NCBI RefSeq assembly: GCF_003171515.1 | Contig: NC_089399.1 | Span: 4,241,994-4,305,993 of the forward strand | Reading direction: 5' to 3' | DNA: 64,000 nt | From: Pyrenophora tritici-repentis | Taxonomy: Eukaryota; Ascomycota; Dothideomycetes; Pleosporales; Pleosporaceae | Shown: piece after piece, positions 30,885-52,800 of the stretch | How positions within the stretch are numbered: position 1 is the first letter of the stretch | Layout of the letters: each line of letters opens with the position of its first letter | Made by a program: the position numbers and the translations under genes | The notes under the pieces: model-generated | Database searches by the model: none | What the model saw: only the letters and a program-made list of their open reading frames with translations | What the model was told of the DNA's origin: nothing

Positions 30885-31133
30885 AACAACAGACAGACAC
30901 TGTATAAAACTACAAACAATATTTCTTTTCGCAAAGAGCTCGCTGTTACATCTCTTTCTGTTCACCACACTGCTCTTTAGCACCCGCGCCAACGGAAGAC
31001 TAGCTCGGAAATTGGACTACGCAACTATCCTCCAAATTGTACAAGACCTATAGAAACTCCATATTGAACAACATACATAGAACGGCTTAGCCAAAGTCCT
31101 ACATAGTCACCGACTGATACAGGACTCTAACCC
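30885..31133 (+). mobile_element. LINE 3' UTR fragment without TAA tail
   Basis: From AACAGACAGACACTGTATAA to ATACAGGACTCTAA, closely matching 50830-51083. The tail is missing and the sequence changes to CCCAGGGCGCTC, so it was either clipped or the array edge cut it. Confidence 0.85.
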
Positions 31134-31524
31134 AGGGCGCTCAATGGTACGTTATAATATACCATTTTTTTGTTAGTGCTGAGAAGTACGCGTATGGCGG
31201 GTATATACTAGAACCAGGGGTTTATCCCATTAAACTTCAGGAGTACATCCCATTTTTAGTCTATAGTCGAAATTACTCCAAATTTAGACATATAACTCAG
31301 CATACGTAGACGCACAATCTGACGAATTTACAGCGCAGCAGACTATGTGGTTCAGGAGCTTAGGGTTTGGTGTTCTTGGTTAGGGTTACGCGTCTGGGGG
31401 GTCAGGAGGTCGCGAGGCTCGGCACCCCGCCGCGCGCGCGCCGCCGGAGTAAGCACCGAGAGAGCGATCAACAGCGCGTGTATATAAGAAGCCGAGTAGA
31501 ACAGGTAGGCGTCGATATTTCAAC
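31134..31524 (+). promoter_or_regulatory. TLH gene upstream region with TATA box and telomere-like motifs
   Basis: TATATAA at 31481-31487, 37-44 bp before the ATG at 31525. Telomere-like CTTAGGGTTTGG and GGTTAGGGTTACG occur at about 31350-31390, followed by a GC-rich stretch (31425-31450). Confidence 0.5.
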
Positions 31525-31920
31525 ATGTCTAAACCTAGCATCGAGTGCCAGTATTTCGAGCATGTGCCTGAGCACAGCGTAGCGGCATGCAGAGAGTGCA
31601 GATATGCAGTATGGCCAGATCAGATTGAGGGCCATCTACAGAAGCAGCATAAGGTTAGTTACAAGGAGGCTGAGGCAGTTGGACAGCAGGTTCGCAGCTG
31701 GGCTGGGTTAGTCCAGTACCCTAGTGAGCTCGAGGTGCCGACTGGTGCTCCAAAGCCTGTGCGGCAATTGCCAGTGTATACAGACGGGATGTTATGCCAA
31801 TTTGACTCCAGCTGCTGCTATTATGTAGCAAGAAGTAAGGAGGCTATACGAAAGCATTGGCGTAAGGACCATCAAGGATGGTCAGCAGGGAAGAAGCGAG
31901 GGCGGCCAAGTCGAACCAGG
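31525..31920 (+). pseudogene. Telomere-linked helicase gene, segment 1: OrsD-type C2H2 N-terminus
   Basis: About 132 aa from MSKPSIECQYFEHVPEH. Two C2H2-like modules: CRECRYAVWPDQIEGHLQKQH, and CQFDSSCCYYVARSKEAIRK followed by HWRKDH. This is the pattern of the N-terminal region found in fungal OrsD/DUF3505 proteins and subtelomeric RecQ-like proteins. It ends in a basic KKRGRPSRTR tail, where a MITE-A interrupts it without a target duplication. The next segment does not obviously continue the same domain, so part of the gene may be deleted here. Confidence 0.75.
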
Positions 31921-32082
31921 TAGACTCCGCAACAATCAATTCAATCCGGTCACTCTCCTAGACCCACTTACCTATCTAGGTAGGGCTTAAACTCCTATAG
32001 GTAACTACTAGGCTTAAAGCGGTAATCAATCAATCCAATCTGAACCTTCTAGGACCCACTTAATTGATTGTTGCGGACTGTG
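31921..32082 (+). mobile_element. MITE-A in the TLH gene, first copy, no target duplication
   Basis: 162 bp, same sequence as other MITE-A copies, but flanks are GAACCAGG and CAGCCCGC. All other MITE-A copies here have perfect 8-bp duplications. Confidence 0.93.
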
Positions 32083-33941
32083 CAGCCCGCTGGTGTGCGC
32101 GTTGGCGGTGCTGGGCGTCAAGGAGGACGGATGGAAGGGGCCGGAGCAGTACCCGCCGATATTATCGGCGGTGATCAAGATCGCTCGGTTTATGGTCGTG
32201 CAGAAGGGACTAGAAATGTCAGGGCCCGAGGAGGATAGCGGCGATGAGACAGACGACGACTTAGATGACAGCGCGTACGAGAGCGGGCCAAGCCAGCGAC
32301 GGCGTCCCAAGGGGTGTTTGCAGTTAGTGCAGAAGATGATGGACCGGTTCATGGTGCGCGGCAGCCATAGCCCCATGCAGTGGATGTTGGATTTGCGGAC
32401 GTATGGATTGAAGATCCATTACAACACTACAACCCGCGGGCATGTAGAGTGGACGAACGGCGACGAGCTGCTGTACAAAGAGCTGCATTTTAGCATGGCG
32501 CAGTTCCGCGGCATGGTACATGGGCTGGCTAGCGAGAGCCGGCGATTATTAACAGAGGAGTTAATGTTTAGCAGCAAGGCAGCGCCGGTGCCGGCAGTGC
32601 CATGGGAGAGCATACGTGACAACCCAACCGACGAGCGGCCAGGATGGAACTTTTTGAAGGATCATCGCACAAACATGCCCGTCAACGGCGAGAGGTGGTT
32701 ATTTGAGCGGGTAGGCGAGAGCGCCAGCATCCGGAGTCGGTTCATGAAGCCCGGGACGCAGTCAGGGGTAGACCGACAGGCAATAGAGCGATACATGGAC
32801 CGGGTGGTAGAATTTCGCGAGAAGCTGGCGGTGTTAATGCATATAACGGGTGGGCAGCCAGCGCGAGGGCCAGAGCTACTGAGCGTACGGCATAGCAACA
32901 CAGTGCAAGGGGGGCATCGCAATATATTCATCGAGGACGGCATGGTGGTGTTTGTGACACGGTACCACAAGGGATACAAAGTCAGCGGCGACGTCAAGAT
33001 TATCCATCGATATTTGCCGCGCGAGGTGGGCGAGCTGGTAGTGTGGTATATGTGGCTGGTGTTGCCGTTCCAGCAGCGGCTCGAGGCGTTGGTGTGGGAG
33101 AAGGAGGCAGTTTCGTCGCATATGTGGCCAGCAGACCCCAGCGGCCGCAAGTGGACGACCGATCGGCTGCGGGAGGCGTTGAAGCGCGAGAGCCGGATCG
33201 CGATGGGCCAGGAGTGGACGTTTGCCGGGTACCGGGAGATGGCGATTGGCATCAGCCGGCGGTTTTTGCGTGGATCGACAGCGTTCCAGGCAGATGAGGG
33301 CGAGGAGAATAAGGAGTGGGCTGAGGAGCAGGCAGGAGATTCGATTGCCGACGAGCAGGCGGGCCATACGTCGCACGTGGCGGGACTGGTATACGCGCGA
33401 GGGATCATGGAGCAGTCAGGGGCCGTGGCGGATAGGCGGCAGCAGTTCCGGGCATCGAGCACGGATTGGCATAGATTTTTGGGCTTCCAGGCAGGCTTGG
33501 ACGACCAGAGAAGAAGCAGCAAGCGGAAGAGAGCGCCGTTTGAGAGCGAGGCAGACGAGGCAAGGGTGGATCGGTGGCAGCGGCTGAGGAAGATGGACGC
33601 GAGAGCGCAGCTGAAGCGCATGATGGGCGAGGAGGCCAAGTTCCGGGGGGTGCAGGAGGCAGCGATCAAAGCCATCACAGCAGGCGAGAGTCCCGTAGTA
33701 GCGGTGATGCCGACGGGGGCAGGCAAGAGCTTGTTGTTCATGTTGCCGGCGTGGGCAGAGCAGGGCGGCACGACGGTGGTGGTAGTGCCGTTGATCGCGT
33801 TGCGTGGCGACATGGCACAGCGGTGCAAGAAGCTAGGGATATCGTGCGTAGAGTGGCAGAGTCGGCGTCCGCCAGACGCAGCAGCGGTGGTGTTAGTGAC
33901 GCCCGAGTCGGCAGTTGGAGAGGAATTTGCAACGTTTTTAA
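32083..33941 (+). pseudogene. TLH gene, segment 2: tyrosine-recombinase-like domain and RecQ helicase lobe 1
   Basis: Frame open from SPLVCALAVLGVKEDGW. Nucleotides 32840-33410 have the spacing of a tyrosine recombinase: Arg at 32864 (GGQPARGPELLSVR), Lys at 32969 (RYHKGYK), Arg at 33233 (AGYREMAIG), His at 33365 and Tyr at 33392 (AGHTSHVAGLVYAR). The usual box-II His is replaced. A helicase lobe follows: AVMPTGAGKSLLFMLPAW (Walker A), VVVPLIALRGDM, VLVTPESAV. RecQ-type proteins unwind DNA 3' to 5'; TLH genes of this type sit beside telomeres in several fungi. The segment ends at a MITE-A in lobe 1. Confidence 0.85.
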
Positions 33942-34103
33942 TAGACTCCGCAACAATCAATTCAATCCGGTCACTCTCCTAGACCCACTTACCTATCTAG
34001 GTAGGGCTTAAACTCCTATAGGTAACTACTAGGCTTAAAGCGGTAATCAATCAATCCAATCTGAACCTTCTAGGACCCACTTAATTGATTGTTGCGGACT
34101 GTG
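33942..34103 (+). mobile_element. MITE-A in the TLH gene, second copy
   Basis: 162 bp, duplication GTTTTTAA (33934-33941 and 34104-34111), placed between helicase motifs Ia and II. It brings an in-frame stop ~45 bp after entry. Confidence 0.94.
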
Positions 34104-35718
34104 GTTTTTAAACCGGCTACGAGCGACGCGGCAGCTAGATCGGATTATTATCGACGAGTGCCATATCGTGTTAAACCGGCAGTACACGTTCCGCAAGCAG
34201 ATGCAGCAGCTAGGTAAGCTAGTGGCTGTAGAGACGCAGATGGTCATGTTAACAGCAACGTTGCCACCCAGCGAGGAGGACGAGTTATTCCGGCGAATGC
34301 ATTTTGAGCGTGGGCAGGTAAGAATGTTTAGGGCACCAACAGCACGGAGCAACATAGCGTACCGGGTGGTAAGGGTAGAGAAGGAGAGGAAGAGACAGGA
34401 GGTAGAGGCAACGGTGTTGGCGATGGTACAGCAGAAGGTCCGAAAGTATAAGAGCGGCAAGATTGTAGTGTACGGCAACTCAGTGCCAAAGGTCAAGGGG
34501 TTAGCCGAGAAGCTCAAGTGCCATGCGTATCATCACCACGCGGTTGGCAAGGCAAGCATGTTGGAGGAGTTCATGGGCGGCAAGCAGCGGGTGATTGTGG
34601 CAACCAGCGCGTTGGGCATGGGAGTGGACGTGCCCGATATCCGGTGCATTGTCCACATGGATTGGCCGTTTAGCGTGTTGGATTACGCGCAGGAGAGCGG
34701 GCGAGCCGGGCGAGACGGGGAGCGGAGCGAGGCCATCATGATGGTGCAGGACGGCGAGCAGCGAGCGGCGGATGACAAGCAGGGGGAGGCGGAGCAGCGG
34801 TTGGTGCGAGCATACGTCGAAGGCATAGACGAGGCGGCGACATGTAGACGGGTAATGTTGGACGGGTATTTAGACAGGCGCGAGGCCGAGCGAGCTCGGT
34901 GCGAGGAGGGAGAGGAGAGGTGTGACGTATGCATGAGAGCCGACGGGGAGGAGATGGAGGAGGAGGAGATGGAGGAGGAGGAGATGGAGGAGGAGATGGA
35001 GGAGGAGATGGAGGAGGAGATGGAAGAGATGGAGGAGGTGGAGGAGGTGGAGGAGGTGGAGGAGATGGAGGTGGTGGAGGTGGCCGAGGGCGGCAGCAGC
35101 AACGAAGAAGAGGCGGAGACATTGGAGAGGGAGCAAGAAGAGGCGCGGCAGGCGTTTAATCAGCAGCAACGAGAGCAAGGCGGCCCGCGACAGAGATTGA
35201 TACAGCAGCGGCAGCAGGAGTTCGCCGACGTCGAGTGGCTGCGTAGGCAGCTGGCGCAATGGATAAACCGGTGTGGGTTATGCGAGGCGGTAGGGCAAGG
35301 ATCGAGCGCACACGACGTACGGCAATGTTGGCGACAGGAGAGCCAGCGGATCAAGGAGTCGATTAAGAGGATGGAAGAGACAATTAAGTTTGAGCGTTAT
35401 TCGGGCTGTTTTTGGTGTGGAGTGCCGCAGGAGATATGCAATCGGTGGGAAAGGAATAGTTTTGGGCGATATCAGAGAGTCCAAGACGGGGATTGCCAGT
35501 ATAGAGGGGTATTAATAGGCGGGTTATTAAGTATAGCATTAGGGCGGAGCGAGGTAGGAAACCGATGGACGGCGCGGTTAGAGGAGTTCGGGGTTAGTAA
35601 TTCAGGAGCAGGGCCGACGTTGTTTGAGTTTTTAGGAAAAAAGCGATTGTTAGAGACGGTTGAGAGCAATAACTTAGCAGGAGAGTTTTGTTGGATTACA
35701 AGATTAATAGGCGAGTAG
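34104..35718 (+). pseudogene. TLH gene, segment 3: RecQ helicase lobe 2 and C-terminal Cys-rich region
   Basis: Continues with DECH (34153-34164), VMLTATLPPSEED, KIVVYGNSVPKVKGLAEKL, VIVATSALGMGVDVPDIR and the arginine-finger motif QESGRAGRDG, so all RecQ superfamily-2 motifs are present. Then a CRRVMLDGYLD and CDVCMRA zinc-type region, a Glu/Met-rich low-complexity run (34945-35090) and C-terminal CGLCEAVG and CFWCGVP pairs, with stop at 35718. No stop or frameshift is seen in this segment. The gene is broken only by the two MITEs and a possible deletion at the first. Confidence 0.88.
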
Positions 35719-38700
35719 AGGAAATATAGAGAGTTGTAACGTTGACGAGGGTAGCTCCAACAGCTCGAGTAGGTCGGATAGTGTAAGCAGCGATAAAGGC
35801 AAGAGCAGCAAGATCAGCGAGAGCGTAGGCAGGGTTAGCAGCAAGAGAGATAGCAGCAACAGTGACGATAGTAGCAGCAGTAAGAGTAGCGACGAAGGCG
35901 AGGGCAGCGAGAGCAGTGATCAAGGCGAGAGCAGCGAGAGTAGTGACGAAGGCGAGGGTAGTAAAGATATTAGAGGTAGCGAAAGCAGCGGCAACAGCGA
36001 GAGCAATGAGAGCAACGACAAAGACGAGGGCAGAGAAGGTAACGAGAGCGGCGAGAGCAGTAAGAGCGCAGGCAGCGTTGGTAGCGAGAGCAATAGCTGC
36101 AACAGTGGCGATAGTGGCGATAGCGAGGGCAGCGACGACGGCGAGGATGGCGAGGATGGCGAGGATGGCGAGGACAGCGAGGGCAACTTGATGGCAGGTA
36201 GCGAAAGCAGTAATAGCAGCTTGAGCAGGGAGGAAAAGCGAGGGTCGTGACGACGGCGAGAGTAGCTCCGATAGCGAGAGCAGCAAGAGCGAGAGCAGCA
36301 AGAGCGGCAAGAGCAACGAGAGCGAGGCAGGCGAGGCAGGCGAGAGCAACGAGATGGCAAGTAGCGAGAGCGAGGCAGGCGAGGCAGGCGAGAGCAACGA
36401 GATGGCAAGTAGCGAGAGCGTAGGGAGCGAGAGAGGCGAGAGAAATAAGAGCAGCGACATGATAGGTACCGTTGGCAGCGAGAGCATCGAGAGCCGCGCA
36501 TATAGCGAGAGTAACGAGAACAGAGCGAGTAGCGAGAGCAGCGACGACGGTAAGGACAGCGAGAGCAGGAGCCGCAGCGGCGAAAGGAGTTGTAGAAGCC
36601 GTAGCAGCGGTAGGAAGTGAGAAGCAGCGAGAGTAGCGCGAGCAGTGGGGGACAGCAGGGACAGCGAGAGCAGTAGGGAAAGCAAGAGCAGGGGCAGAAG
36701 TAGTTATAGCGGCCGCAGGCGTAGTAGGAGCGGTGGGGAGTGAGGAGCAGAAGCGAGGATATCGATAGCAGCGAGAGCAGCGAGGACGGCGGGGATAGTA
36801 GGGATAGCGGGATCAGCTGTGAGAGAAGCGAGGATAGCGAGAGTAGGAAAGCAGGAGCCGCAGGCGCGATAGAAGTAAGAGTAGCAAGAGCAGTAAGAGC
36901 AGGATGTGTAGCCGCGAGGATAGAGGCAATTAAGGTAATTAAGGTGATTGCGATGATTGCGAGGACAGTAAGAGCAACAAGGGCAGCGCAAGAAAGGGGC
37001 GAACGGCAAGGGAATTAACTATTAAGTTAATTGTAGCGATTGCAAGGACAGCGGGAACAGCGAGGATAGTAAGGGCAGTAAGGGTAGATTGTAAGGACAG
37101 CGGAAGCAGCGAGGACAACGAGGACAGCGAGGATTGTAAGGACAGCGGAAGCAGCGAGGACAACGAGGACAGCGAGGATTGTAAGGACAGCGGAAGCAGC
37201 GAGGATAATGAGGACAGCGAGGATAGTAAGAACAGCGAGGATAGTAAGGACAGTAAGAGTAGCGAGGATAGCGAAAGTAGGAGAGTAGCAGTAGCAATAG
37301 CAGTAGCCGGAGGTGTATATAAGCTGTAAGAGGTAAGAGGTAGAAGTAAGGATATTATAAGCAGCAAGGATAGCAGGGGCAGAAGCGGCAACAGGTGCAG
37401 GGGTAGTAGGAGTAGTAATAAGAATATTAAGAGCAGTGCAAGTTACAAGGACAAGGGACAAAGTAAGGACAGTAGAGATAGTAAGAGTATCAGGAGCAGC
37501 GAGAACAGAAGCCGTAGGATTGATAGCGAAGATATTAAGAGCAGCAAGGAAAGCGAAAGTAGCGAGGGTAGTAAGAGCAGCGACAAGAGGAGCGGTAGCG
37601 GCCGCCGAAACCGCAGTTACCGCAGGTGGAGGAGGCGTAGGAGGTAAGGGGCAGAAGAGAGCAGTAGAGACAGCGGGAACAGCGGGGAAAGCGAGAGCAG
37701 CAAGAAGGACGGGGATAGTAGAGATAGAGGAAGTGGCGAGAGCAGAAGCAGTAATAGGGAGGATTGCGGAATGCGGAGGAGTAAGAGCGGTAGGAGTAAG
37801 AGTAGCAAGAGCAGGACGTAGAAGTAAGAGCCGTAGGAGCAGGAGCAGTAAGAATAGCAGGAGTAGCAAGGGTAGGAGCTTTAAAGGCGGCAGCAACGAG
37901 GGTGTTACAAGCAGCGAAAATAATAGGAGCAGGGAGAGTGGTCGCAGTAAGGATAGCGATAGAAGCGAGGTTGGCGACAGCAGGGACAGTAGTAGTAGCA
38001 AGAATAGCGAGAGTAGCGAGAGCAATAGCAGTGAGAGCTAGAGCATTAAGAGTAGCAGCAATAAGAGCAGTAACCGTAGGAGTAGGCGCATTAAGAGTAA
38101 AAGCTGCAGGAGTAAGAGCAGTAAGGGCGGAAATAGTAGGAGCGTAATTAGCGAGAGCAGGAGCAGCGAGGACAGCAGGAGCAGCTGGAATGGCGAGAGC
38201 AGCAAGGACGGAGTGGATAGCAAGAATAGGAAGCGTAGGGGCCGCAGTGGCGATATTTGTAGAAGCGGCAGTAAACACAGGTGTAGTAGTAGCCGTAGGA
38301 GTAATAACGAGCATGTTAAAAGCAGCAAGGACGGCAGGAACAGCGGGAGTTGCAATAGTAGAACCCGTAACCGTAATTGAATAGACAGTAAGAGTGATAG
38401 TCGCGATAGAAGGAAAAGTTACAAGAATAGCAGCCGTAGCCGTGGTAGAAGCAAGAGTAATTATAATAGAGGCAAAGATAGTAACAGTAGTAAGAGTAAT
38501 AAGCACAGTAAGGGTATAGTAAGAGCAAAAGTTTAAAGAAGAGTTATTTATGTTAAAAATAAGTATGCAGGTATAAAGCAAAGAAAAGAAAGATTCGAAA
38601 AGAGAGAGTATAAAGTTGGTGAGATTCATAATCGATAGATGAGGTAGGTAAAACAGGTATAGTTTGTAGTATATATTAGATAGTGTTTAAGAAAGAAATC

Positions 38701-38769
38701 AAGCATAGAATTAAGTAGGATTTAAGGATTAGGATTGTAGTAGAAGACAGAGCAAGTTATTAGGAATAC
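35719..38769. repeat. Purine-rich low-complexity subtelomeric tract
   Basis: About 3 kb in which the plus strand is dominated by AGCGAGAGCAGCAAGAG-like words. Pyrimidines appear mainly as isolated C or T after AG. Long open frames occur on both strands only because of the biased composition. It directly follows the TLH stop codon. Confidence 0.85.
37088..37222. repeat. 45-bp tandem repeat, three units
   Basis: ATTGTAAGGACAGCGGAAGC recurs at 37088, 37133 and 37178 within the purine-rich tract. Confidence 0.88.
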
Positions 38770-39012
38770 TGTTGAGAATACAGTCCGTAAGTGACTTGGT
38801 GGTATCAAGCGGAGGAGTAGTCACATGATTGGTGACACGTGCAGGTGGGTCCTAGCGGGGAGCTTGGACGCAGCTGCACGCAACACGGATCTACGAACGT
38901 GTGAATAGCTCCTTAGTCAATACAATACGAGTCGTACCACCACTACCGTTGTGCCTTAGAGAGCGCTCTATTAGGTAGTCATACTACTACTAATAGTGCC
39001 AGCTTTTCAATA
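38770..39012 (+). repeat. Copia-4 5' LTR
   Basis: 243 bp beginning TGTTGAGAATAC and ending TTTTCAATA; unusually ends in TA rather than CA, as judged from the target duplication. Confidence 0.9.
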
Positions 39013-39034
39013 GGTTATGAGCCCGGTTGCTCGG
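39013..39034 (+). other. Copia-4 primer binding site, half initiator tRNA-Met type
   Basis: GGTTATGAGCCCGG directly follows the LTR. Its complement CCGGGCTCATAACC is the anticodon arm of initiator tRNA-Met (CAT anticodon). Drosophila copia is primed the same way by a cleaved initiator tRNA. Confidence 0.7.
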
Positions 39035-39084
39035 TGCTCTACGGTTCGGCGACCCACCAGATCAAGGTGATCTGAAGCCACGAA

Positions 39085-39325
39085 AGTCGAGACGAGCTTC
39101 TCGCACACGGAAGACGAGACGAGCTTCTCGCACACGGAAGACGAGACGAGCTTCTCGCATACGAAAGACGAGACGGGCTTCTCGCACACGGAAGACGAGA
39201 CGAGCTTCTCGCATACGAAAGACGAGACGGGCTTCTCGCACACGGAAGACGAGACGAGCTTCTCGCATACGAAAGACGAGACGGGCTTCTCGCACACGGA
39301 AGACGAGACGAGCTTCTCACACACC
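39085..39325 (+). repeat. 27-bp tandem repeats in the Copia-4 leader
   Basis: About nine units of CACACGGAAGACGAGACGAG + CTTCTCG, alternating with a CATACGAAAGACGAGACGGG variant, between primer site and gag. No ATG-initiated frame covers them; the frame lacking stops would encode an Arg-rich peptide but has no start. Confidence 0.88.
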
Positions 39326-39474
39326 GAAAACGAGCATACGGTTCCAGCTAGAGAAAGCTGAAGGGCGCAGACGCCAAAACGTTTACAAACCCACTAAACA
39401 CCCCCTACACCTCGAAACCACACACAACTACGGCATTTGACGCGTCACAGACAGTCAAAAGCACAACCGCGAAG

Positions 39475-41331
39475 ATGGGCAGCGACGACAGATACGATAA
39501 GGAGCCTAAGATCCCAAAGCTGACGAAGGAGAATCACGAGAAATGGTTCCGCAATAACAAACTGAAGCTGAAGGGAAAGGGAATCTTCTACACTATCGAA
39601 GTCACGAAGCACGCGTACGCCTGGATTGCACGACATGGAGCTGGCACCTCCACATCAACTGCCAACACCTCTCAAGACCCGGCCGGCACTGTCAACCCTA
39701 CAGAACAAGCAAGCGTCCTAGGCCTGACAAGCGACTTCGAACGACTGGGAGGTACATGGAACGCTGAAAAGGCAAAGGAATACGACAAGGATGAGGCTAA
39801 GGCACTGTTCTACATCACAAACAGTCTCCTTGATGATGACGACGCTCTCGCAGACGAGTACGAGACTGCATCTGCCCTCTGGACCGCACTGAAGGTCAAG
39901 TACTCAAAGACTGATCAGTTGACAGCCAACAACATCATGACCAAGCTTCAGAACTTCACCTGGAAAGACGAGAAGGATGTCGACTACACGTGGGCAAAGC
40001 TAAAAGAATACCGCCGCAAGATTATTGCAGCTAAGCCTGCTGCCAAGGGACTCTACAATGATGAGGCACTTCTCCAGATCATGCTACGCGCTCTTCCAGA
40101 AAGCTACGGATCAGTAATCGACTATCTCGATGTCCAGACCTCTCTCACGGTTGACGAAAAGATTGCTGCACTCCGCACGAAGGAGCTGCGACTGAACGAC
40201 ACGGCTGAGCATGCAAATGTAGCATTCCCGAAGTACCGTCACCCGAATGACCATAGAAGCTCGGACTCCTCGATGCGCGACCGCCCCCGTTCTACATCGC
40301 CTGAATTAGGCCCATCCACAGGATGCCTCCATTGTAAGGGAGAACACTGGGCCCGAGACTGCAAATACAAGGGTGAAATTCAGGAATTCGGAAGAAAACT
40401 TCGAGAGAAAGACGAAAGAGCTGAGAGACGCGCAGCCAAGTCGAAGAGACCTTCTAGAAATGAGAACAAGAAGCGATCTGACAAACCTGTCAAGCCTACA
40501 GTCAAGACAACCTCGAGGCGCAAGCATGGGTACGCAGCCAAGAATCAGGATTCTGACTCTGGAACGGACAATGGCTCCTCAGGCACGGACAGCGAGACCA
40601 GCCACGAGTCTACATCCGTGGAAACAGAATGTACGCAACACTGCCATATCTCTGCGGAACAAGCTAGTAAAAGCACACCGGCGAACTGGATTGCTGATAC
40701 TGGTGCTTCATCACACATGACTGACAAGAGAAACCTGTTTAGAGGACCGCTAAAGCGCACGCCGCTCACCACTATCCAGGTTGGGGGAGGATTTCTTCAT
40801 TCTACCCAACGTGGTACTGTTATGATGAAGGCACTGGATGGGACAACAGGATTACTCCGAAAGGTTCTCTACGTACCTAAGCTCGGCGTGAATCTAATCG
40901 CAGCAAGACGGTTGTGTAGGGAGGGACTTCAAGGCATTTTTGATGACAAGAACATGTATTTTAAGGACAAATCAAGAATCGCAGTACAAGCAGCACAGAA
41001 GGACGGTCTGTACATCGTAAGCCACATTGCAAGCAAGTACTCAGGAAAGGCGTTTATTGCAGGCAAGACTCGGACCGACAGCAACGATCAAAGCACTGCG
41101 GAGGAAAGTCAGGAGACACAACCCGAGACACAATCCGACCAGGACCCAGACGAATCCGAAGAAGACAAGTCCACGAAGAAAGATCGCCGGAACTACAGGC
41201 TAATGCACAGACGGTTTGCTCACTACGGCCCAGCAATGCTACGAAACCTGTATAAGGTAACGACAATTGAAAAGATTAAAGTACCCCAGCCCACAGGCGC
41301 TTCTGTGACCCATGCCTTAAAGGCAAGATGA
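39475..41331 (+). CDS. Copia-4 gag, protease and pre-integrase module
   Basis: 618 aa from ATG at 39475 (MGSDDRYDKEPKIPKLTKEN). UBN2-type gag over roughly residues 15-240 (NHEKWFRNNKLKLKGKG, TWAKLKEYRRKI). The zinc knuckle is CLHCKGEHWARDC, with three rather than four residues before His. A basic/Ser-rich linker follows, then protease NWIADTGASSHMTDK. The first half of the integrase zinc module (HRRFAH) is near the end. The frame then loses CDPC, which is encoded one frame over, and stops at 41331. Stop and the next frame's ATG overlap as ATGA. Confidence 0.9.
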   Translation: MGSDDRYDKEPKIPKLTKENHEKWFRNNKLKLKGKGIFYTIEVTKHAYAWIARHGAGTSTSTANTSQDPAGTVNPTEQASVLGLTSDFERLGGTWNAEKAKEYDKDEAKALFYITNSLLDDDDALADEYETASALWTALKVKYSKTDQLTANNIMTKLQNFTWKDEKDVDYTWAKLKEYRRKIIAAKPAAKGLYNDEALLQIMLRALPESYGSVIDYLDVQTSLTVDEKIAALRTKELRLNDTAEHANVAFPKYRHPNDHRSSDSSMRDRPRSTSPELGPSTGCLHCKGEHWARDCKYKGEIQEFGRKLREKDERAERRAAKSKRPSRNENKKRSDKPVKPTVKTTSRRKHGYAAKNQDSDSGTDNGSSGTDSETSHESTSVETECTQHCHISAEQASKSTPANWIADTGASSHMTDKRNLFRGPLKRTPLTTIQVGGGFLHSTQRGTVMMKALDGTTGLLRKVLYVPKLGVNLIAARRLCREGLQGIFDDKNMYFKDKSRIAVQAAQKDGLYIVSHIASKYSGKAFIAGKTRTDSNDQSTAEESQETQPETQSDQDPDESEEDKSTKKDRRNYRLMHRRFAHYGPAMLRNLYKVTTIEKIKVPQPTGASVTHALKAR

Positions 41332-44300
41332 GGAATAAGATGAACAAAATCCTAGCAGAACACAAAAAGGAGGTACTAGCACTAGTATCTCTTGACTTAG
41401 CTGGACCGTTCCCTACATCACTCCGCGGAAATAACTACCTTATGCAAATAATCTGCAACCACTCCCGAAAGAACTGGTCGATACCACTGAAAACCAAGGA
41501 CCAGGCTATCCTAGAGCTACGCAGATGGAAGGCAAAGGTAGAGCTCCAGACTGGGAAGAAGGTGAAGGCCTGCAGATCAGACAATGCGCCAGAACTAAAG
41601 CTTGTGATAAACCAGTGGGAAACTGAAGACGGGGTTCAGGCCGACTACACCGTAATTGCGAGCTCGAATCAAAATGGACCAGTGGAGCGAAGCATCCAGA
41701 CTGCCGAACACGCAATGAGGGCAATGCTCGATGATGCACAACTTCCTATTGAGTTCTGGGACGAGGCCGCTGAGGCTGACGCCTACATCCGCAATAGACT
41801 GCCAACAGGACCGCTGGTCGAGGGAAAACCCACGTCTCCAGAGCAGGTATTCTCAGGGAAACGCCCAGGCGTAGACCACGTACGAGTCTGGGGGAGCAAG
41901 TGTTACACCTATCTCAATCCAAAGACGCTGCCAGCGAAAGGGAGATTAGACAAGTTAGTGCACCGTGGTCGAGCAGGCGTCTTTATGGGATATTCTGAAA
42001 CTACAGACAAGCAGTTCAAAGTCTACTCTCCTGACCTTGGATATACGCATAGAGTTAGCGTCATCCAAACTAATGAGAAGGTGCCAGGGGGAAAGATAGA
42101 CCTGAACTTGAGAGTCAAATCAGGTCCAATGGGCACATCTAATGAGCTCATCCCACGGAAAGCCAGAGGAAGACCAAAGAAGAACCTAAATCAACTAACT
42201 AAACCCGACGCCCTGGATGTTGATATTGAACTGCCGCCATCATCGCCGCCATTGCCGCCGCCATCATCGCCGCCACCATCGCCGCCATCACCGCCGCCAC
42301 CATCGCCGCCTACGCCAGCACCTGCGCACCCATCACCTACCATCACTCCACCCGCGCCAACAGTAGAGGATGAGAGCGAAGAAATGGAGGTAGACGAAGT
42401 TACCAACCCAGTAGCAGCCGAACCATCAGCTAGGTATCACTTCAGGACTCGGACCCAAAAGAGAAAGCGAGATACATTTGACGACATGGAGGATGAACAT
42501 CGCCAAGCCAAAATTGTCAAAGCTATGCTAGCTGTCCTACGAGAGAGCCGAGCCGACGAAGACCCCACAACTGAAATACCGACATCTACGCACCACCATG
42601 AAGAGTCTGCACACGAGACGATTGTTAAAGCCTTCTATACGGTGATTGTAAGTGGAAACCTCGATGTCACGGGACGAGCAGAACTTAGCGGCAAAGCTTT
42701 CGCAGCAACAGAAGTTAAAGGCATTAGAATCCCTCAGACCTATAAACAAGCTATAAGCGACCCAGAGAACGCACTGAAGTGGAAAGAGGCAATTGAGGAA
42801 GAGATCAGGACTCTTGTGGGGAACGGAACTTGGGAAGAGCTTATTCCACCCCAGGGTGCAAACCTCGTCACCACAAAATGGGTGTTTACTGTCAAGCTTA
42901 AAGTTGATGGTACGATTGAGAGGTTCAAGGCCAGACTTGTTGCTCGAGGGTTCAGTCAACAACACGGGATTGACTACACCGAGACTTTCGCCCCGACAGT
43001 ACGAATGGACACCTTAAGGTTATTCCTTGCTACTGTTGCCAAACAGGGCATGGAATGCTGGCAGTGGGACATCAAGAACGCATTCACTGAGTCATACTTA
43101 AAAGAAGACATCTACCTCACAACACCAGCTGGGGTAAAAGTTAAGAAAGGCAACGTTCTGAAGGTTTTGAGGAGTCTTTACGGACTTAAGCAAGCTGGAC
43201 GAGATTGGAACCTGCTACTTAAGGGGTTCTTAACTGAGATCGGTTTTACACAGAGCCTTGCAGACCCCTGCCTATTCACGCATAAAGGCAGAGGTATTTC
43301 ACTACTGGTTTATGTTGACGACATTGCTGCTGCCGCGAAACTCACTTCAGACCTAGCCTGGTTCGACGAAATGCTCCTTACGAGATTCAACTCCAAGAAC
43401 CTGGGGGAGATTCGAAAGATCCTTGGAGTTAGAGTCACCCGCGATAGAGCTAACAAAGCTATTTACCTCGATCAACAGCAGTACCTAGAGACAGTCCTAG
43501 ATAAGTATGGTATCACCTCAGCAAAGTACAAGTCAAAGAAGATCCCTGCTGCAGACTACGAACACCTAAAGCCTGCTACTCCTGAAGACGCCAGAATCGA
43601 CTCCACACAATATTCACAGATTATTGGAAGCTTAATGTACGCAATGGTATTCACGAGACCAGACATTGCCTTTGTACTTGGACGACTAGCCCAGTACATG
43701 AGAGACCCTGTAGAGATGCACGGGACTGCGTTAAAGAATCTAATGAGATATCTACGGTCAACAGTAAAGCAGAAGATTCGCTTCGGTCCAGGAGGAGATC
43801 ACCAAAACGAGTTTGGGATCTACACCGACGCTGACTGGGCAAGCGATAAGACAGACCGGAAGAGCATGTCTGGGGGAGTCGGAATGTTCTATGGAGGACC
43901 ATTCTCTTGGGCAGCAAAGAAGCAGAAGTCAGTGGCAACCTCAAGTGCTGAGTCTGAGTACATCTCACAAGCCATGTACGCCAAGCAGGGACAGTGGGCA
44001 GCTCAAGTACTCAGAGATCTCGGCCTGCACCAATACGTCAATGAGAACGGTATCACAGTCCAGATGTACGGTGACAATCAGGGAGCGATTGCACTGGTGA
44101 AGAATCCGCATCTGCACGAACGTTCTAAGCACATTGACATCTGCTACCACTTCATTAGAGACCTAGCTGAGCAGAAGAAGCTCCAGATTTCTTATATTCC
44201 GACTGACGAGATGGTTGCCGACGGAATGACTAAGCCACTGCAGAGAGTTGCTTTCGAAAGGTTTAAGAAGATGCTGGGAGTTATTGATGAAGGGCACTAG
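41328..44300 (+). CDS. Copia-4 integrase, reverse transcriptase and RNase H
   Basis: 990 aa from the ATG overlapping the upstream stop. In this frame the codons before the ATG read CDPCLKGK, the second half of the HHCC zinc site, so the two frames belong to one polyprotein. Integrase: SLDLAGPFPTSL, CRSDNAPEL, NQNGPVERSIQTAEHAMRAM. Pro/Ser-rich linker near residues 300-345. RT: WVFTVKLKVDGTIERFKARL, WDIKNAFTESY, LYGLKQAGRDW, LLVYVDDIAAAAK. RNase H: YTDADWASDKTDRKSMSGG, TSSAESEYIS, MYGDNQGAIALV. Ends DEMVADGMTKPLQR. Catalytic residues look intact. Confidence 0.92.
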   Translation: MRNKMNKILAEHKKEVLALVSLDLAGPFPTSLRGNNYLMQIICNHSRKNWSIPLKTKDQAILELRRWKAKVELQTGKKVKACRSDNAPELKLVINQWETEDGVQADYTVIASSNQNGPVERSIQTAEHAMRAMLDDAQLPIEFWDEAAEADAYIRNRLPTGPLVEGKPTSPEQVFSGKRPGVDHVRVWGSKCYTYLNPKTLPAKGRLDKLVHRGRAGVFMGYSETTDKQFKVYSPDLGYTHRVSVIQTNEKVPGGKIDLNLRVKSGPMGTSNELIPRKARGRPKKNLNQLTKPDALDVDIELPPSSPPLPPPSSPPPSPPSPPPPSPPTPAPAHPSPTITPPAPTVEDESEEMEVDEVTNPVAAEPSARYHFRTRTQKRKRDTFDDMEDEHRQAKIVKAMLAVLRESRADEDPTTEIPTSTHHHEESAHETIVKAFYTVIVSGNLDVTGRAELSGKAFAATEVKGIRIPQTYKQAISDPENALKWKEAIEEEIRTLVGNGTWEELIPPQGANLVTTKWVFTVKLKVDGTIERFKARLVARGFSQQHGIDYTETFAPTVRMDTLRLFLATVAKQGMECWQWDIKNAFTESYLKEDIYLTTPAGVKVKKGNVLKVLRSLYGLKQAGRDWNLLLKGFLTEIGFTQSLADPCLFTHKGRGISLLVYVDDIAAAAKLTSDLAWFDEMLLTRFNSKNLGEIRKILGVRVTRDRANKAIYLDQQQYLETVLDKYGITSAKYKSKKIPAADYEHLKPATPEDARIDSTQYSQIIGSLMYAMVFTRPDIAFVLGRLAQYMRDPVEMHGTALKNLMRYLRSTVKQKIRFGPGGDHQNEFGIYTDADWASDKTDRKSMSGGVGMFYGGPFSWAAKKQKSVATSSAESEYISQAMYAKQGQWAAQVLRDLGLHQYVNENGITVQMYGDNQGAIALVKNPHLHERSKHIDICYHFIRDLAEQKKLQISYIPTDEMVADGMTKPLQRVAFERFKKMLGVIDEGH

Positions 44301-44328
44301 AACAAGTCACGTAAGGCCTGTGGGGGAG

Positions 44329-44571
44329 TGTTGAGAATACAGTCCGTAAGTGACTTGGTGGTATCAAGCGGAGGAGTAGTCACATGATTGGTGACACGTG
44401 CAGGTGGGTCCTAGCGGGGAGCTTGGACGCAGCTGCACGCAACACGGATCTACGAACGTGTGAATAGCTCCTTAGTCAATACAATACGAGTCGTACCACC
44501 ACTACCGTTGTGCCTTAGAGAGCGCTCTATTAGGTAGTCATACTACTACTAATAGTGCCAGCTTTTCAATA
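44329..44571 (+). repeat. Copia-4 3' LTR
   Basis: 243 bp, no visible difference from 38770-39012. Confidence 0.92.
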
Positions 44572-45317
44572 AATACATTAATAAGAAGATAGAAGAAAAG
44601 ATTAAGTTTATATAAAAGTAGAGTCATAAGAAGAAGATATAAATAAAAAAGATATAAGAGATTATGTTTCAATAATATTAAAAAGAGATGTTAGAAAAGA
44701 AAGAAGAATAAAAGAAACCCGATATAATTTAAGAGGAGTATAGTAAAGGGAATAGAAGATAGGTAGAAGAAGAAAGAGAGAGAAAGATAAGGAAGTTTAT
44801 AGAGAAGGACATAAGAAGCAAAAGATAAAGAGAAAGAAGGAGAAGTAAAGAAAATAGAAAGAGAAGTAAAGAAAAATATAGAGCAAGTAAAGAGAGAGTA
44901 GCAAGAACAGCAGTAGTAATAAGGATAAGGATAGAGTTAAGGTACAGTACAATAATGCATAGTGGGTATTTAAGCAACAGTAGTAAGACGAGGCAGGCCG
45001 TGTTGGACGTGCATACAGTAGGTAGAGTTTAAGTTTACCGACGCAGAATAGTGATAGAGGTATATAGGGTAGTAGATAATGCGATGCGGTATATAGACGG
45101 CGGTAGGCGAAGGACAGAGCCGACACAATATACAACAGTATTAGAGAACTAAGAGGTAGTAGGCAAAGGAGATAGTTGAAGAAGTATTTAGGTTGTGTTT
45201 AGTATAGCGAATGGTATAACGTGTGTATACAAGCAATAAGAAGATAATAGATACGGAGGAGATTAGACAGCAGATATAAAAGATTGTTAGTTTCGAGGGT
45301 ATTTATAGCAAGGTTGT
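44572..45317. repeat. Purine-rich subtelomeric tract with probable decayed TLH sequence
   Basis: 44577-44930 is A/G-rich without recognisable content. From about 45030 the plus strand can be laid against TLH 32770-33020: TTTACCGACGCAGAATAG against AGACCGACAGGCAATAG, and AAAAGATTGTTAGTTTCGAG against TCAAGATTATCCATCGATAT, with C largely replaced. This would be the recombinase-like part of a RIP-decayed TLH copy. The LINE is inserted at its end. Confidence 0.5.
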
Positions 45318-45539
45318 CCCACACACAACTTCGAGTTTTTTCCGAACACGTGAAACTCCATCAGAAACCAACTATATCCATCGAAAGAAATAGATTCCGA
45401 CTACTCCCAAGCCGTGCAGCCGCGTGGTTGTGGAGATACAAGGAGTCTAGTACCCCAAACGCGACGCGTCCGAACTTTCAGAAGCAAACGCACAGACCAA
45501 GCCAAGAAACAACAACAACAAGACAACAGAGAGGCTAAA

Positions 45540-46991
45540 ATGGCCCCAGATAGCGACACTATCGTAGTCCAGCTACCAGAAGACCTCCGGACCTCAAGCA
45601 CACTGGACGACGAAATGGAGACCGACGAAAGGCACCAAGACAACCCAACAACACCCATCGAGCAGACCACCCAAGAAACACCAAGGTTAATTATTCAGCC
45701 ACCACTAAATAAAAGACCAGCGGCATTCTCCCCAGAGATAACTACAAGAGAGAGAAACCCATTCCAGAACAGCCAAGAAAAGAAACCAAGAGCAAAGGAC
45801 TCAACCCAAGCAATCTTCTGGGCAAGGGACCTAATTCTACAAGCATCTACTATGGCCGAATCCCATCTATCCCAAAACAAACTACTACAACTACTGGACG
45901 TCTTTAGAGACTTTACGGAACTAGGCAGGGTTACGCAGCAAATGACTGAGAAGTTTACAGCACAGCTTGCGTACCAGACTGCAACGCTTACAAGCGCCTC
46001 CCAACAAGCTACAAAGACACTAAAGAAAGCTGTTAATGCCGCAACTGGACCACAAAACCCAAACAACCAAGAAAAACCAAACAACCAGAACACCCAGAAC
46101 ATCCAAAACACCCAAAACACCCAAAACACCCAACAAAACAAGACATCATACGCTAGCGTAGCCGCCCAGAACAACGGAAACACATGGACTACAGTGTCTA
46201 CAAAAAAGAAGACAAACAAAAAGCCAGCAAGCTACTACCAAGCAGTCCTTACGCTTACCCAGCCTACGTCTCACACACCACTCCAGATTAGAGACCTAAT
46301 CAACGAAGAGTTCACAAAGGGCGGCATCAAAGACCCAGTAGTGAAGGAAGTAACAACAAGTAGAAAGAACAATATTATTCTAACAACCACTCCAACCTAC
46401 TCAGGAGAATACCTAGTCCAACACAAGCATATATGGCATCAAAAGTTTGAGCTAAAGAATGTACAACTACTAGAATCATGGACGAAAGTAGTAGTACATA
46501 ATGTGCCAACAGAATGGGAGGGAGCAGAGACACTAGAGATACTCCACACAGAAATCCCAGCATACAACAACGGACTACAAATTACTGGCAACCCATACTG
46601 GATATCAAGAGAATGGCAAAACAAGAAGAACAGCTCTATTGTAATAGCATTCAAAACAGCCGAAGACGCAGCCAGACTTGGTGGTAGAATTACAATCCTT
46701 GGACAAACTCTCTTCACCGAAAAGTTTAAGCCTATAGCAGCATCTACCCAATGCCTAAACTGCCAACAATTTGGCCACCCAGCCACTAGATGCCGAAACC
46801 AACCAGCATGCAATTTGTGCGGAGAAGAACATGCAACTACAACACACAAATGCTCAGTGTGTAATACAAAAGGAAAACCCTGCAACCATACACTCCCCCA
46901 CTGTAGTAACTGCAAAGAGCCCCACTTTGCAAACAGCAAAGAGTGCGAACTCTACCAAGCAGTAACAAAGAGCATCCCCGCAGGATTTTAA
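45540..46991 (+). CDS. LINE ORF1 (gag-like), copy B
   Basis: 483 aa from MAPDSDTIVVQLPEDLRTSS at 45540 (AAAATGG context). Same protein as copy A: Gln/Asn-rich middle (residues ~185-210), then CLNCQQFGHPATRC and two further Cys-rich boxes (CNLCGEEHATTTHKC, CSNCKEPHFANSKEC). RNA-binding particle protein of the Tad/I-type LINE group. Stop TAA overlaps the ORF2 ATG. Confidence 0.92.
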   Translation: MAPDSDTIVVQLPEDLRTSSTLDDEMETDERHQDNPTTPIEQTTQETPRLIIQPPLNKRPAAFSPEITTRERNPFQNSQEKKPRAKDSTQAIFWARDLILQASTMAESHLSQNKLLQLLDVFRDFTELGRVTQQMTEKFTAQLAYQTATLTSASQQATKTLKKAVNAATGPQNPNNQEKPNNQNTQNIQNTQNTQNTQQNKTSYASVAAQNNGNTWTTVSTKKKTNKKPASYYQAVLTLTQPTSHTPLQIRDLINEEFTKGGIKDPVVKEVTTSRKNNIILTTTPTYSGEYLVQHKHIWHQKFELKNVQLLESWTKVVVHNVPTEWEGAETLEILHTEIPAYNNGLQITGNPYWISREWQNKKNSSIVIAFKTAEDAARLGGRITILGQTLFTEKFKPIAASTQCLNCQQFGHPATRCRNQPACNLCGEEHATTTHKCSVCNTKGKPCNHTLPHCSNCKEPHFANSKECELYQAVTKSIPAGF

Positions 46992-48736
46992 TGTTGAACA
47001 ACATTAGGATCCTCCAAGTCAATCTCAACAAGAGCATTACAGCGACTGAGTCTACACTGCAACTTGCAGTTGAACTTAAAGCTGATATAATTGCAATTCA
47101 AGAGCCATGGCTAACTACCAACGACAACTACGCAACAGCAAGATCCATAAATCACACTGCGTTTATCCAGATCTTACCAGTAACAAACCTACCCGTCCGC
47201 CCTAGGGTTCTATTTTATATATCTAGAACACTAGAAGCAGAGACATTCACCCAAAACGACTTCAAAATAGACCCAGACGCAATGGCTATTACAATAAAAG
47301 GTTCTAATTTCCAATTTAACCTATTTAACGTATACAACCAAACAAACGCCGAAGGGGAAAAAACACTGCCCAGAGCTATACTTAACACTAAGCTTCCGCC
47401 AAGTTCTATTTTAGTACTAGATAGCAACGAGCACCATCCATTGTGGGACCCGCTATGCCCAACGACGAGCCAAGGAGCACAGCCATTTATTGACTGGATT
47501 GAAGAACAAGATCTAGAGCTCCTAAACACACCAGGAGTAGGCACATTCTTCAGACCACACCTATCTAGAGAAACAGTCCTAGACCTCTCACTTGTCACTC
47601 CAGACTTGGCTAGCAAAGCTACGGACTGGCAGACTATACCTGAAACTGGATCAGATCACTACGGCCTCCTATTCTCCATCCAAACAAACGCAGACCTTGT
47701 AGAAAACCCGACAAACCAACCCAGATTTAATACTGCAAAGGCTAACTGGGACACCTTCAACAAAGAACTAGAAACGGCAATCCAAAACAGTCAAACCTTG
47801 CAAGATATGGACCAGATCAGTGATCCAAGAAAGGCAGACTTAATGGACCTCCTCCTCGGCAACAATACAGAGCTAGAGCAACAGCTAGAAGAGATTGGTA
47901 AAGCAATAACTCAAGCAATCCAAACTGCAGCAAACAAAGCTATCCCTATCACTAGACTTGGTCCAAAACCAAAAGCTTGGTGGAACAAAGAGCTGACAAA
48001 GCTACGACAAGACACTTCCCACTATAGAAGGATTTTTAAAGAAAAGCTCGAAACTACTGCGATACACGACGCCTACCTAGAGAAAAGAGACTTCCTACGT
48101 GCACGAAACACCTACAACAAGGCAATCAAAGACGCTAAAAGGAAACACTGGAATGAATTCCTAGAGAAGGAAGACCCGCAGTCAATCTACAAAGCCATGG
48201 CATATACAAAGGATAACAAAGTCGAAAGAATTCCACCTATACAAGGAGAAACATCATTCGACAAGAAATGCCAAGCGTTCCGCAACACGCTATTCCCACC
48301 ACCGCCCATAACCGAAGCGCCCACATTCACCAACTACCAGGAAAAGAGATGGGATTGGCCAGCACTATCCACGACTGAACTAGAACGAGCATGCTCAAGT
48401 CAAGTCAAAAGTAGCACCCCAGGACCAGATGCAATAACACAAGACATAATCACAGCTGCGTACAAAGCTCAACCGCAAACAATGTTTAAAGCTTTCTCAC
48501 TCCTATTCGACTACGGATACCACCCAAAATGCTGGAAACAAGCTACAGGAGCTGTTCTTAAAAAGGCATCAAAACCAGACTATTCAATCCCAAAAGCCTA
48601 CAGAGTTATCACTCTATTAAGCTGTTTAGGAAAGATTAACGAGAGGATCACCGCAAGTAGGCTGAGCAATCTAGCAGAAATCACAGAGCTACTACACCCA
48701 ACCCAAATTGGGGTAGACTCAAGAAATCTGCAATAG
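46991..48736 (+). CDS. LINE ORF2 part 1: endonuclease and RT N-terminus, copy B
   Basis: 581 codons from the TAATG restart. Apurinic-type endonuclease: ILQVNLNKS, AIQEPWL, LVLDSNEHHPLWDP, TGSDHYGLLFS. Then the RT entry region SSTPGPDAITQDIITAAY and AYRVITLLSCLGKINERITA. The frame ends prematurely at 48736 after a shift at the G-run 48710-48713; one more G would give IGGRLKKSAIDAAMLL and join the next frame. Confidence 0.9.
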   Translation: MLNNIRILQVNLNKSITATESTLQLAVELKADIIAIQEPWLTTNDNYATARSINHTAFIQILPVTNLPVRPRVLFYISRTLEAETFTQNDFKIDPDAMAITIKGSNFQFNLFNVYNQTNAEGEKTLPRAILNTKLPPSSILVLDSNEHHPLWDPLCPTTSQGAQPFIDWIEEQDLELLNTPGVGTFFRPHLSRETVLDLSLVTPDLASKATDWQTIPETGSDHYGLLFSIQTNADLVENPTNQPRFNTAKANWDTFNKELETAIQNSQTLQDMDQISDPRKADLMDLLLGNNTELEQQLEEIGKAITQAIQTAANKAIPITRLGPKPKAWWNKELTKLRQDTSHYRRIFKEKLETTAIHDAYLEKRDFLRARNTYNKAIKDAKRKHWNEFLEKEDPQSIYKAMAYTKDNKVERIPPIQGETSFDKKCQAFRNTLFPPPPITEAPTFTNYQEKRWDWPALSTTELERACSSQVKSSTPGPDAITQDIITAAYKAQPQTMFKAFSLLFDYGYHPKCWKQATGAVLKKASKPDYSIPKAYRVITLLSCLGKINERITASRLSNLAEITELLHPTQIGVDSRNLQ

Positions 48737-50856: not shown

Positions 50857-51084
50857 AACTACAAAAACAATATTTCCTTATCTAAAAGAGCCCGCTGCTA
50901 CATCTCTTTCTATTCACCACACTGCTCTTTAGCACCCGCGCCAATGGAAGACTAGCTCTGAAATTGGAGTACGCAAAACACCACCCAAATTGTACAAGAC
51001 CCATAGAAACTCCACAACGACCATCATACATAGAACGGCTTAGCCAAAGTCCTACATAGTCACCGACTGATACAGGACTCTAAT

Positions 51085-51110
51085 GGAAATATAATAATAA
51101 TAATAATAAT
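51085..51110 (+). repeat. LINE (TAA)n tail
   Basis: AAATATAATAATAATAATAA-type tail ending at the target duplication. Confidence 0.85.
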
Positions 51111-51121
51111 AGCAAGGTTGT

Positions 51122-52040
51122 TAGGATTAGTATAGGGAAGCAAGAATAGAGTAGCATAGGGATAGATAGGAGGTTAGTAGAACAGAGAGTTAAAGTAAAT
51201 TTAATAGAGGGATTCGTAAGACAGTTTTAGAGCAAGTAGGGGTTAGGGTGTACAGAAACGAATAGGTTAATAAGAGAGTTTTATTAGAGTCAGCCGTTTA
51301 TAATAGAGGAGAACAATAAACAACAGAGGTTATTGCAGAGAAGGGTATAGGCCGAGGTAAAGGGAAGAAGAGAGAAGATGTAGTGGCAATAGGAAAAGTT
51401 TCCGAGTTAGGGTATTTAGTAGATGTTATATAGATTAAGTGATAAAAGCGAGTAAATTAGATTAAAAATAAGGAGAGATAGAAATAGATGAAGAGGAAAG
51501 GAAAGAAGAGAGAGGAACAGAAGAGAGAGAGGGAAGGATGGATGTGGTGGAGAGGAGAGATGAGGAGGGGCAGGGAGGGTTGGAGCAGCAGGAGCAGGAG
51601 CAGGAGCGACAAGGCGGGTGGCGGAGGTGAATACAGCAGCGGCAACAGGAGTTTAGGGAGGTAGAGTAGTGAGGTAGGGAATTAGGATGGTAGGGGAATG
51701 GATAGGGAATATGCAAAGGGGCGGATAATGGGCGAAGCGAGGAAAATATAGGGAGATGTTGGTGAGGGGAGGGGGGAAGTGTAAAAGAAGCGATTACGAT
51801 TGTTTTAGAGCCGATTCAGTTTAAGGGTTATTAGGGGCGTTTTTGGTGGGAGGTAGAGTAGGAAAGGAATTGTTAGGGGCGGTATTAGAAGGTAAGAGAT
51901 GCAAATTAACAGTATAAAGGAGTATTCACGGGGGGTTTATTAGGGCAGCGTTTAGGTAGAGGGAGGTAGGAAAGCGTTAGGGGCGGGGTTAAAGGGGAGA
52001 AGAGGATTTATAGTAGATAAGACAGGGTTAGGGGTATAGA
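51122..52040 (+). pseudogene. Decayed TLH copy 1, C-terminal part
   Basis: 51625-51990 aligns with TLH 35200-35610: CAGCAGCGGCAACAGGAGTT against CAGCAGCGGCAGCAGGAGTT, TAAGGGTTATTAGGGGCGTT against GAGCGTTATTCGGGCTGTTT, TATAAAGGAGTATTCACGGG against TATAGAGGGGTATTAATAGG. Nearly all plus-strand C is lost and TpA is enriched, as RIP would do to a purine-biased gene. No open frame survives. The 5' side may continue before the LINE at 45030-45317. Confidence 0.7.
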
Positions 52041-52129
52041 AGGAAGAAAGGGTTAGGGTTACAGAATAAAGAGAGGGATAGGTAAGAAATGAATAGAAGA
52101 ATAAAAATATTCATAAGGAGATAAAGGAG

Positions 52130-52800
52130 GATTAGATTACAGGCAAAATAAGGTAGAAGAGCAATTCGTTAGGTAGTATGTAGAGGGGAAAGAGTGGGTA
52201 ATAAGATATAGAAGGCGAGTATTAGAAAAGTATTTGGAGGGGCAAGGAGGCGAAGAGAGATATAAAGAAGAGGAGGAGAGACGTTTAGTGTGTAGACAAG
52301 CGGACAAGGAGATAGACAGCAGCAAAGAGCAGTAATAAAGAGGAGAAATAGTAGAGAGGAGGGTAGAGCAGTAGGAGCAGGAGCGACAAAGCGGGTAGTA
52401 GAGTTTAATACGGCAGTGATAACAGGAGTTTAGGCAGGTAGAGTAGTAAGACAGGCAATTAGGATAGTAGGGGAATAGATAGGGAATATGCGAAGGGCGG
52501 GTGATAAGCAAAGCGAGGACAAAATAGGGAGATGTTAGTGACGGGGAGGAGAAATACAAAAGAAGCAGTTAAGATTGTGTTAGAGTAGATTTGTATAAGG
52601 GTTATTCGTTATGTATTTAGTAGGGAGTTAGGCAGGAGAAATGTAAGGGGTAGGAGAGGAATTGTTCGGGGCAGTATTGGATAGTACGAGACGCAAATTG
52701 ATAGTGTAACAGAGTATTAATAGGGGGGTTAATAGAGGAAGAGGTAGGGTAGAGGGAGGTAAGAGAGTAGTGGAGGGCGCGGTTAAAGGGGTTAGGGGTA
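52130..52800 (+). pseudogene. Decayed TLH copy 2, C-terminal part
   Basis: Matches TLH from about 34790 to 35610: GAGCAATTCGTTAGGTAGTA against GAGCAGCGGTTGGTGCGAGC, TATTTGGAGGGGCAAGGAGG against TATTTAGACAGGCGCGAGGC, GAGTATTAATAGGGGGGTTA against GGGTATTAATAGGCGGGTTA. In tandem with, and same orientation as, copy 1. No coding capacity. Confidence 0.7.

Follow-up and report, generated by a model that had tools for sequence, protein, structure and literature searches.

We report that the telomere-linked helicase (TLH) gene of Pyrenophora tritici-repentis appears to be a fusion of a zinc finger, a predicted tyrosine recombinase and a RecQ motor. We consider it moderately probable that this gene belongs to a terminal mobile element with a single inserting end, its other end being the telomere. 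The case for the element is built on a left end fixed to the base, on the many different flanks that this end joins, and on the short target found at the junctions.

Architecture of the TLH gene and of the terminal block

The window, i.e. the whole stretch of 64 kb that was analysed, is the end of contig C10 in a genome of 40.9 Mb and 41 contigs. Its features relevant to the terminal block are as follows.

31128..64000, + strand: terminal block (element), with the left end C|TAACCCAGGGCGCTCAATGG at 31127/31128, extending to the TTAGGG telomere
31143..31166, unstranded: imperfect 24-bp palindrome AATGGTAcgTTATAAtaTACCATT, 16 bp inside the left end
31525..35718, + strand: TLH gene, broken at two points in the window copy
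31552..31875, + strand: OrsD (PF12013) zinc-finger domain (Pfam E 1e-24)
31918..32082, + strand: 165-bp repeat with inverted ends, within TLH
32438..33502, + strand: predicted tyrosine-recombinase-fold domain, from conserved residues and predicted fold
32864, 32969, 33233, 33365 and 33392: putative catalytic residues R, K, R, H and Y, respectively
33650..33844, + strand: RecQ motor, part 1 (Walker A region, DEAD; Pfam DEAD E 7.7e-12)
33939..34103, + strand: second 165-bp repeat with inverted ends, interrupting the helicase frame
34126..34719, + strand: RecQ motor, part 2 (rest of DEAD, Helicase_C; Pfam Helicase_C E 4.7e-16)
63926..63998, + strand: TTAGGG telomere repeats, the distal terminus of the block

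The preliminary description had placed the gene at 32083..35718. The helicase and the recombinase-like domain are indeed there, but the gene does not start there: comparison of the window with other chromosome ends put the start ATG upstream, at 31525. About 0.9 kb of the coding sequence present in an intact copy is missing from the window TLH at the first 165-bp repeat. The idea that the breaks mark a spliced intron was rejected, because the inserted sequence is a repeat (seven core copies in the window) with inverted ends and an uninterrupted copy exists. This intact copy, on C7, runs from ATG to stop over 1587 residues, and a P. tritici-repentis database protein is identical to it across residues 640-980. 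Zinc finger, predicted recombinase fold and RecQ motor share the single frame of the C7 copy, which agrees with the earlier suggestion of a DNA-binding region, a strand-transfer domain and a helicase joined in one protein, the middle part being assigned by structure prediction. In the window, the five putative catalytic residues fall inside the open frame 32018-33982.

Part 1 of the RecQ motor matched RecQ5 and RecQ1 chains in the PDB, while the DEAD remainder in part 2 scored slightly below its Pfam cut-off (E 1.1e-5). The stretch between OrsD and the RecQ motor had no Pfam model above cut-off. The middle piece of the gene has at least 86 matches in the genome. The RecQ-type motor, the multicopy state and the subtelomeric location were each tested here and found.

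The block is common to the ends of C7, C5 and C8, with the window copy carrying insertions of other sequence and repeats. It starts about 400 bp upstream of the TLH start codon, and in the three copies followed to the end (window, C7 and C5) its other end is the telomere. In a by-eye listing of the C7 block ORFs longer than 150 aa, TLH was the only long ORF that looked neither low-complexity nor antisense.

Several other features were observed in the window. The 165-bp repeat with inverted ends is present at 16179-16343, 18370-18534, 21277-21441, 31918-32082 and 33939-34103 on the + strand and at about 10944-11108 on the - strand. These are six copies with both ends, against seven core matches. 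A partial copy adjoins the first in tandem, short direct repeats border some of the copies, and two lie within the TLH gene. Immediately 3' of TLH, at 35711-38041, there are long, highly repetitive open frames rich in Ser, Asp and Glu, also found in the C7 block, which may be a repeat and not a gene. From 60201 to 64000, up to the telomere, the strand is strongly purine-rich (GC skew 0.76-0.91), a property common to the C7 and C5 ends. Arrays of a 126-bp unit occupy 13512-14566 and 15151-15697, with consensus units that resemble mutual reverse complements; the unit corresponds to 42-residue repeats, and the arrays perhaps encode a repeat protein.

The predicted recombinase domain

The Arg, Lys, Arg, His and Tyr that had been read as a tyrosine recombinase series are in frame at the positions first noted, as residues 261, 296, 384, 428 and 437 of window:32084-33650. 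Two homologue searches at E 0.001, with the best 120 of 541 and the best 120 of 248 proteins taken, gave 174 distinct proteins. The window and 109 of these, with 41-87% identity to the window, make up an alignment of 110 rows. All five residues occur together in 107 of the 110 sequences. Two exceptions (P0063 and P0159) have gaps where one or two of the residues should be, and the third (P0161) is degenerate, with RNRNC and also without helicase motifs. Across 36 aligned sequences, window included, the five are invariant. The His-Tyr distance of nine, pointed out in the preliminary description, was 9 in 108 of the 108 rows bearing letters at all five sites. The gap from R to H varies from 39 to 59 across the alignment, with an intervening stretch that is variable and often acidic. 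Conservation of at least 98% was found in 31 of the 306 columns of the region, all five catalytic positions among them. The conserved Arg, Lys, Arg, His and Tyr expected of a tyrosine recombinase are present in the homologues.

The box-II His had been described as replaced, and so it is in nearly all homologues, where the position holds A in 57 rows, Q in 34, P in 8, S in 6, H in 2, L in 2 and a gap in one (n = 110). The domain thus departs from tyrosine recombinases at the His (or Lys) of box-II HxxR. The box-II residue varies among known tyrosine recombinases too.

A third search (the best 120 of 762 proteins at E 0.01) added further, shorter homologues. For the 63 that covered at least 90% of the domain, we found RKRHY in 50, RKRYY in 6, and other changes or gaps in 7. 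Between the C7 and C12 copies, dN was 0.016 and dS 0.113 over 354 codons, a stretch that spans the first Arg and the Lys and excludes the second Arg, the His and the Tyr; these values point to purifying selection on the stretch compared. Among the TLH relatives, P0048 is filed under the plant Tanacetum cinerariifolium and P0131 under the actinobacterium Salinispora arenicola, perhaps as a result of fungal contamination of those records.

When predicted structures were compared, the domain matched tyrosine recombinases ahead of all else, with the catalytic-domain fold of that superfamily. The best Foldseek E-value against the PDB was 4.3e-3, with none below 0.001, and the His/Tyr stretch was the low-confidence part of both structure models. 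For 17 domain sequences there was no integrase match in Pfam, NCBIfam or PHROGs, and none to PF00589 or DUF3435 at E 10. A PDB profile search with the domain gave a single unrelated match (E 0.049), and the best 60 rows of the full-length profile search were all helicases or related ATPases. An hhalign comparison with a profile of 72 Xer/phage-integrase-like sequences was weak (P 0.05) and aligned at box I only. PF00589 had no match in the P. tritici-repentis genome; DUF3435, the family of Starship captains, had 18 matches elsewhere in it (on C2, C5, C6, C7 and C10), several of which contain stops. Neither of the two outcomes that the preliminary description named as refuting its reading, an unrelated fold or unconserved residues, was observed. 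Residues and modelled fold together support a tyrosine-recombinase-like domain, for which DNA cutting and rejoining via the Tyr is predicted.

Left ends, flanks and target site

The left end was at the same base in the first 14 copies and then wherever the genome has TAACCCAGGGCGCTCAATGG without mismatch (29 of 29). The reversed control pattern had 0 genome matches. Two further candidate matches to the left end, with 3 mismatches, lie at C10:2505211 (internal) and C36:13036. The 29 exact left ends yield 22 distinct flanks, all joined at one base, with the remaining 7 repeating a flank already counted. On the ten large contigs, the left ends faced outward in 19 of 19 cases, 7.6-40.3 kb from the contig end, and were present at 17 of the 20 contig ends; the other 10 left ends are on short contigs. 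Several flanks are different positions within the same repeat families, so the flanks should be seen as distinct insertion points and not as wholly independent samples.

A diverged TLH subfamily (C12:38442-40468 and C1:9896018-9896827) shows about 81% DNA identity near the left end, and 94-99% in protein. Its two copies have the identical left-end base with flanks of their own. As for the palindrome inside the left end, shuffles did equally well in 7 of 500 cases for C7, 10 for the diverged L140 copy and 4 for the window, and in the L140 copy the arms have changed with the palindrome retained. As a real feature the palindrome is only suggestive, because it was first spotted by eye.

The base before TAACCC was C in 21 of the 22 distinct flanks and T in one (C3R, T at -1). 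Among the sequences examined, an element-free version was found for 17 of the 22 flanks, the other 5 being without one, and in its commonest form it continued with T in 17 of 17, which defines the target as C|T. For the C4R3134k flank, the count uses the majority variant; one of four element-free copies, a minority variant, departs from C|T. When the two diverged copies were added (24 flanks), there was C at -1 in 23, a pyrimidine at -2 in 19 and C at -3 in 16 (p 3e-6), and the lowest p at positions -4 to -16 was 0.039, all p-values treating the flanks as independent. From these flanks the target is read as CYC|T, similar to CCCT of the telomere C-strand, and CTAACCC is the sequence at the junction.

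The distal half of the target was absent beyond the junction at all four junctions tested (C7R, C8R, C9R and C27, representing two target sites) with up to 2 mismatches allowed. For these four junctions, an insertion that preserves both target halves was therefore rejected. The right half of the target occurs once in the window, at 51082, after an uninterrupted copy of the flank. Some targets are themselves repeats seen in the window. The 165-bp repeat was the target of a left end once (C13 and C8L). A repeat present at 1632-2049 and 45505-45922, in opposite orientations, was the target on C13, C6R and C20, with the C3L left end immediately adjacent to it.

The preliminary description had raised the possibility of a subtelomeric system that moves or amplifies. 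Read from genomic sequence, the precise left end, the many flanks and the C|T target strongly support this possibility.

Origin of the left ends and comparison with known elements

Since 22 distinct flanks meet the block at one base, homologous copying was rejected as the origin of the left ends. Exact ends and a fixed target also argue against plain end joining. Making such ends requires DNA to be cut and joined at specific sequences. Given the predicted fold and catalytic residues of TLH, we propose the recombinase as the joining enzyme and infer that the element's own recombinase makes the left-end junctions; the one tie between recombinase and left end is that TLH, read by eye, is the only convincing ORF of the C7 block.

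In the mechanism we propose, the recombinase domain would cut the left end of the element at CT|AACCC, itself telomere C-strand-like, with CT|AACCCAGGG as the candidate substrate for cleavage and joining, and would also cut a genomic CYC|T site. A covalent tyrosine intermediate would form and the left end would be joined to the CYC|T site. The RecQ motor might unwind the element DNA or help to copy it. The old distal arm would be lost, with the element's own telomere capping the chromosome. Insertion by a recombinase usually preserves both target halves, whereas in the terminal block one of them is lost. More tentatively, we suggest a new class of mobile DNA, terminal recombinase-helicase elements, in which a recombinase would recognise the telomere-like CCCT|AACCC and join the single free end of the element to CYC|T in a chromosome arm, each insertion severing the old end of the arm and putting a new one in its place, with gene and telomere.

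Three other explanations bear on the same observations. The recombinase fold may be an inactive relic, or may do no more than bind DNA, with R/K/R/H/Y conserved for folding. This we regard as quite improbable. Strongly conserved columns are not rare in the region, the box-II His is missing, and the dN/dS comparison excludes the His and the Tyr, all of which would suit a relic. Still, the His, and the Tyr exactly nine residues on, rank with the most conserved residues despite lying in a low-confidence stretch of the model, where folding alone hardly explains their conservation, and the sole RNRNC protein lacks the helicase motifs as well. It is also improbable, if a little less so, that end joining repaired chromosome breaks by attaching a linear molecule bounded by a telomere, with CTAACCC as its fixed left end. 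Such repair would account for the missing distal halves at the four tested junctions, the kind of loss that a break causes; CTAACCC corresponds to the unit of the telomere C-strand; and the C and T of the junction would be microhomology, with at least the T common to junction and target in 17 of 17 cases. End joining yields varied trimming and varied repeat numbers. Against it, the start base is the same in 29 of 29 left ends, T is at +1 in 17 of 17 targets, and the exact left end recurs in the diverged subfamily.

Lastly, TLH may serve the host in telomere maintenance, its recombinase fold working on recombination intermediates at telomeres or just binding DNA. On this view another enzyme made the precise left end, and break-induced replication and unequal exchange carried the copies from one chromosome end to another. 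We think this unlikely, though it has several points in its favour: a telomere-maintenance role has been proposed for TLH genes (in passages of PMC10532341 and PMC7473861), domesticated recombinases are known (in a passage of PMC3212892), and the 7 left ends with a repeated flank are what exchange or copying predicts. Homology copying, on the other hand, cannot explain how 22 distinct flanks come to meet the block at a single base, and the animal DUF3504 genes derived from Cryptons have lost the catalytic site (PMC3212892, same passage), whereas 107 of 110 sequences here keep all five residues.

The terminal element that we favour shares properties with several known systems. Helitrons combine a helicase and a strand-transfer domain in one protein, with an HUH nuclease, a Pif1 helicase and an A|T target. 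The TLH element differs in having a predicted recombinase fold and not an HUH nuclease, RecQ and not Pif1, and C|T and not A|T. Starships are eukaryotic DNA transposons with a tyrosine recombinase. A tyrosine recombinase is also present in Cryptons, likewise DNA elements of eukaryotes (PMC3212892, in part). In contrast to both, the P. tritici-repentis domain has no match to DUF3435 or another integrase model, and it is fused to RecQ and OrsD in a terminal block with the distal target lost at the tested junctions. The match to DUF3435 that a Starship captain would give was not found in this domain, and the two target halves retained by Cryptons and Starships were not both found at any of 4 junctions tested.

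We know of no recombinase in yeast Y' elements. Those elements and the TLH block are both telomere-localised repeats with a helicase gene (for Y', from part of PMC4522978). The telomeric retrotransposons MoTeR and FoTeR likewise occupy chromosome ends. FoTeR is often found beside TLH; it encodes a reverse transcriptase and is bounded by telomere repeats (PMC12857005, in part). For the block described here, TLH looked by eye like the only convincing ORF (C7 copy), the flanks are non-telomeric and the target is C|T.

The closest relatives are the TLH genes of other fungi (UTASa of Ustilago, and TLH of Magnaporthe, Fusarium and fission yeast), which likewise have a RecQ motor, many copies and a location next to telomeres. 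Knowledge of them goes back to 1998 or earlier (reference list of PMC7473861), and a role in telomere maintenance is proposed or doubted in passages of PMC7473861 and PMC10532341, the latter also noting OrsD in related Ustilago repeats. We found no recombinase domain or precise left end in the accessible parts of the TLH papers cited here, and no recombinase domain in a telomere-linked helicase in titles and abstract openings of the open-access literature. An open-access full-text search joining both terms had no match. TLH genes are already known in many fungi; the recombinase-fold fusion is best called a new variant on known kinds.

If the proposed mechanism is true, the element would stand as a separate class. 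On the more tentative reading, the TLH families of fungi would act as chromosome-end transposons, and a single reaction would underlie both the loss of arm ends and the spread of TLH. With a putative recombinase active site, left ends precise to the base and a defined C|T target, the telomere location of TLH becomes a biochemical question. Should the domain cut and join at CT|AACCC, fungi would possess mobile DNA able to build chromosome ends, and this may be why their subtelomeres turn over fast.
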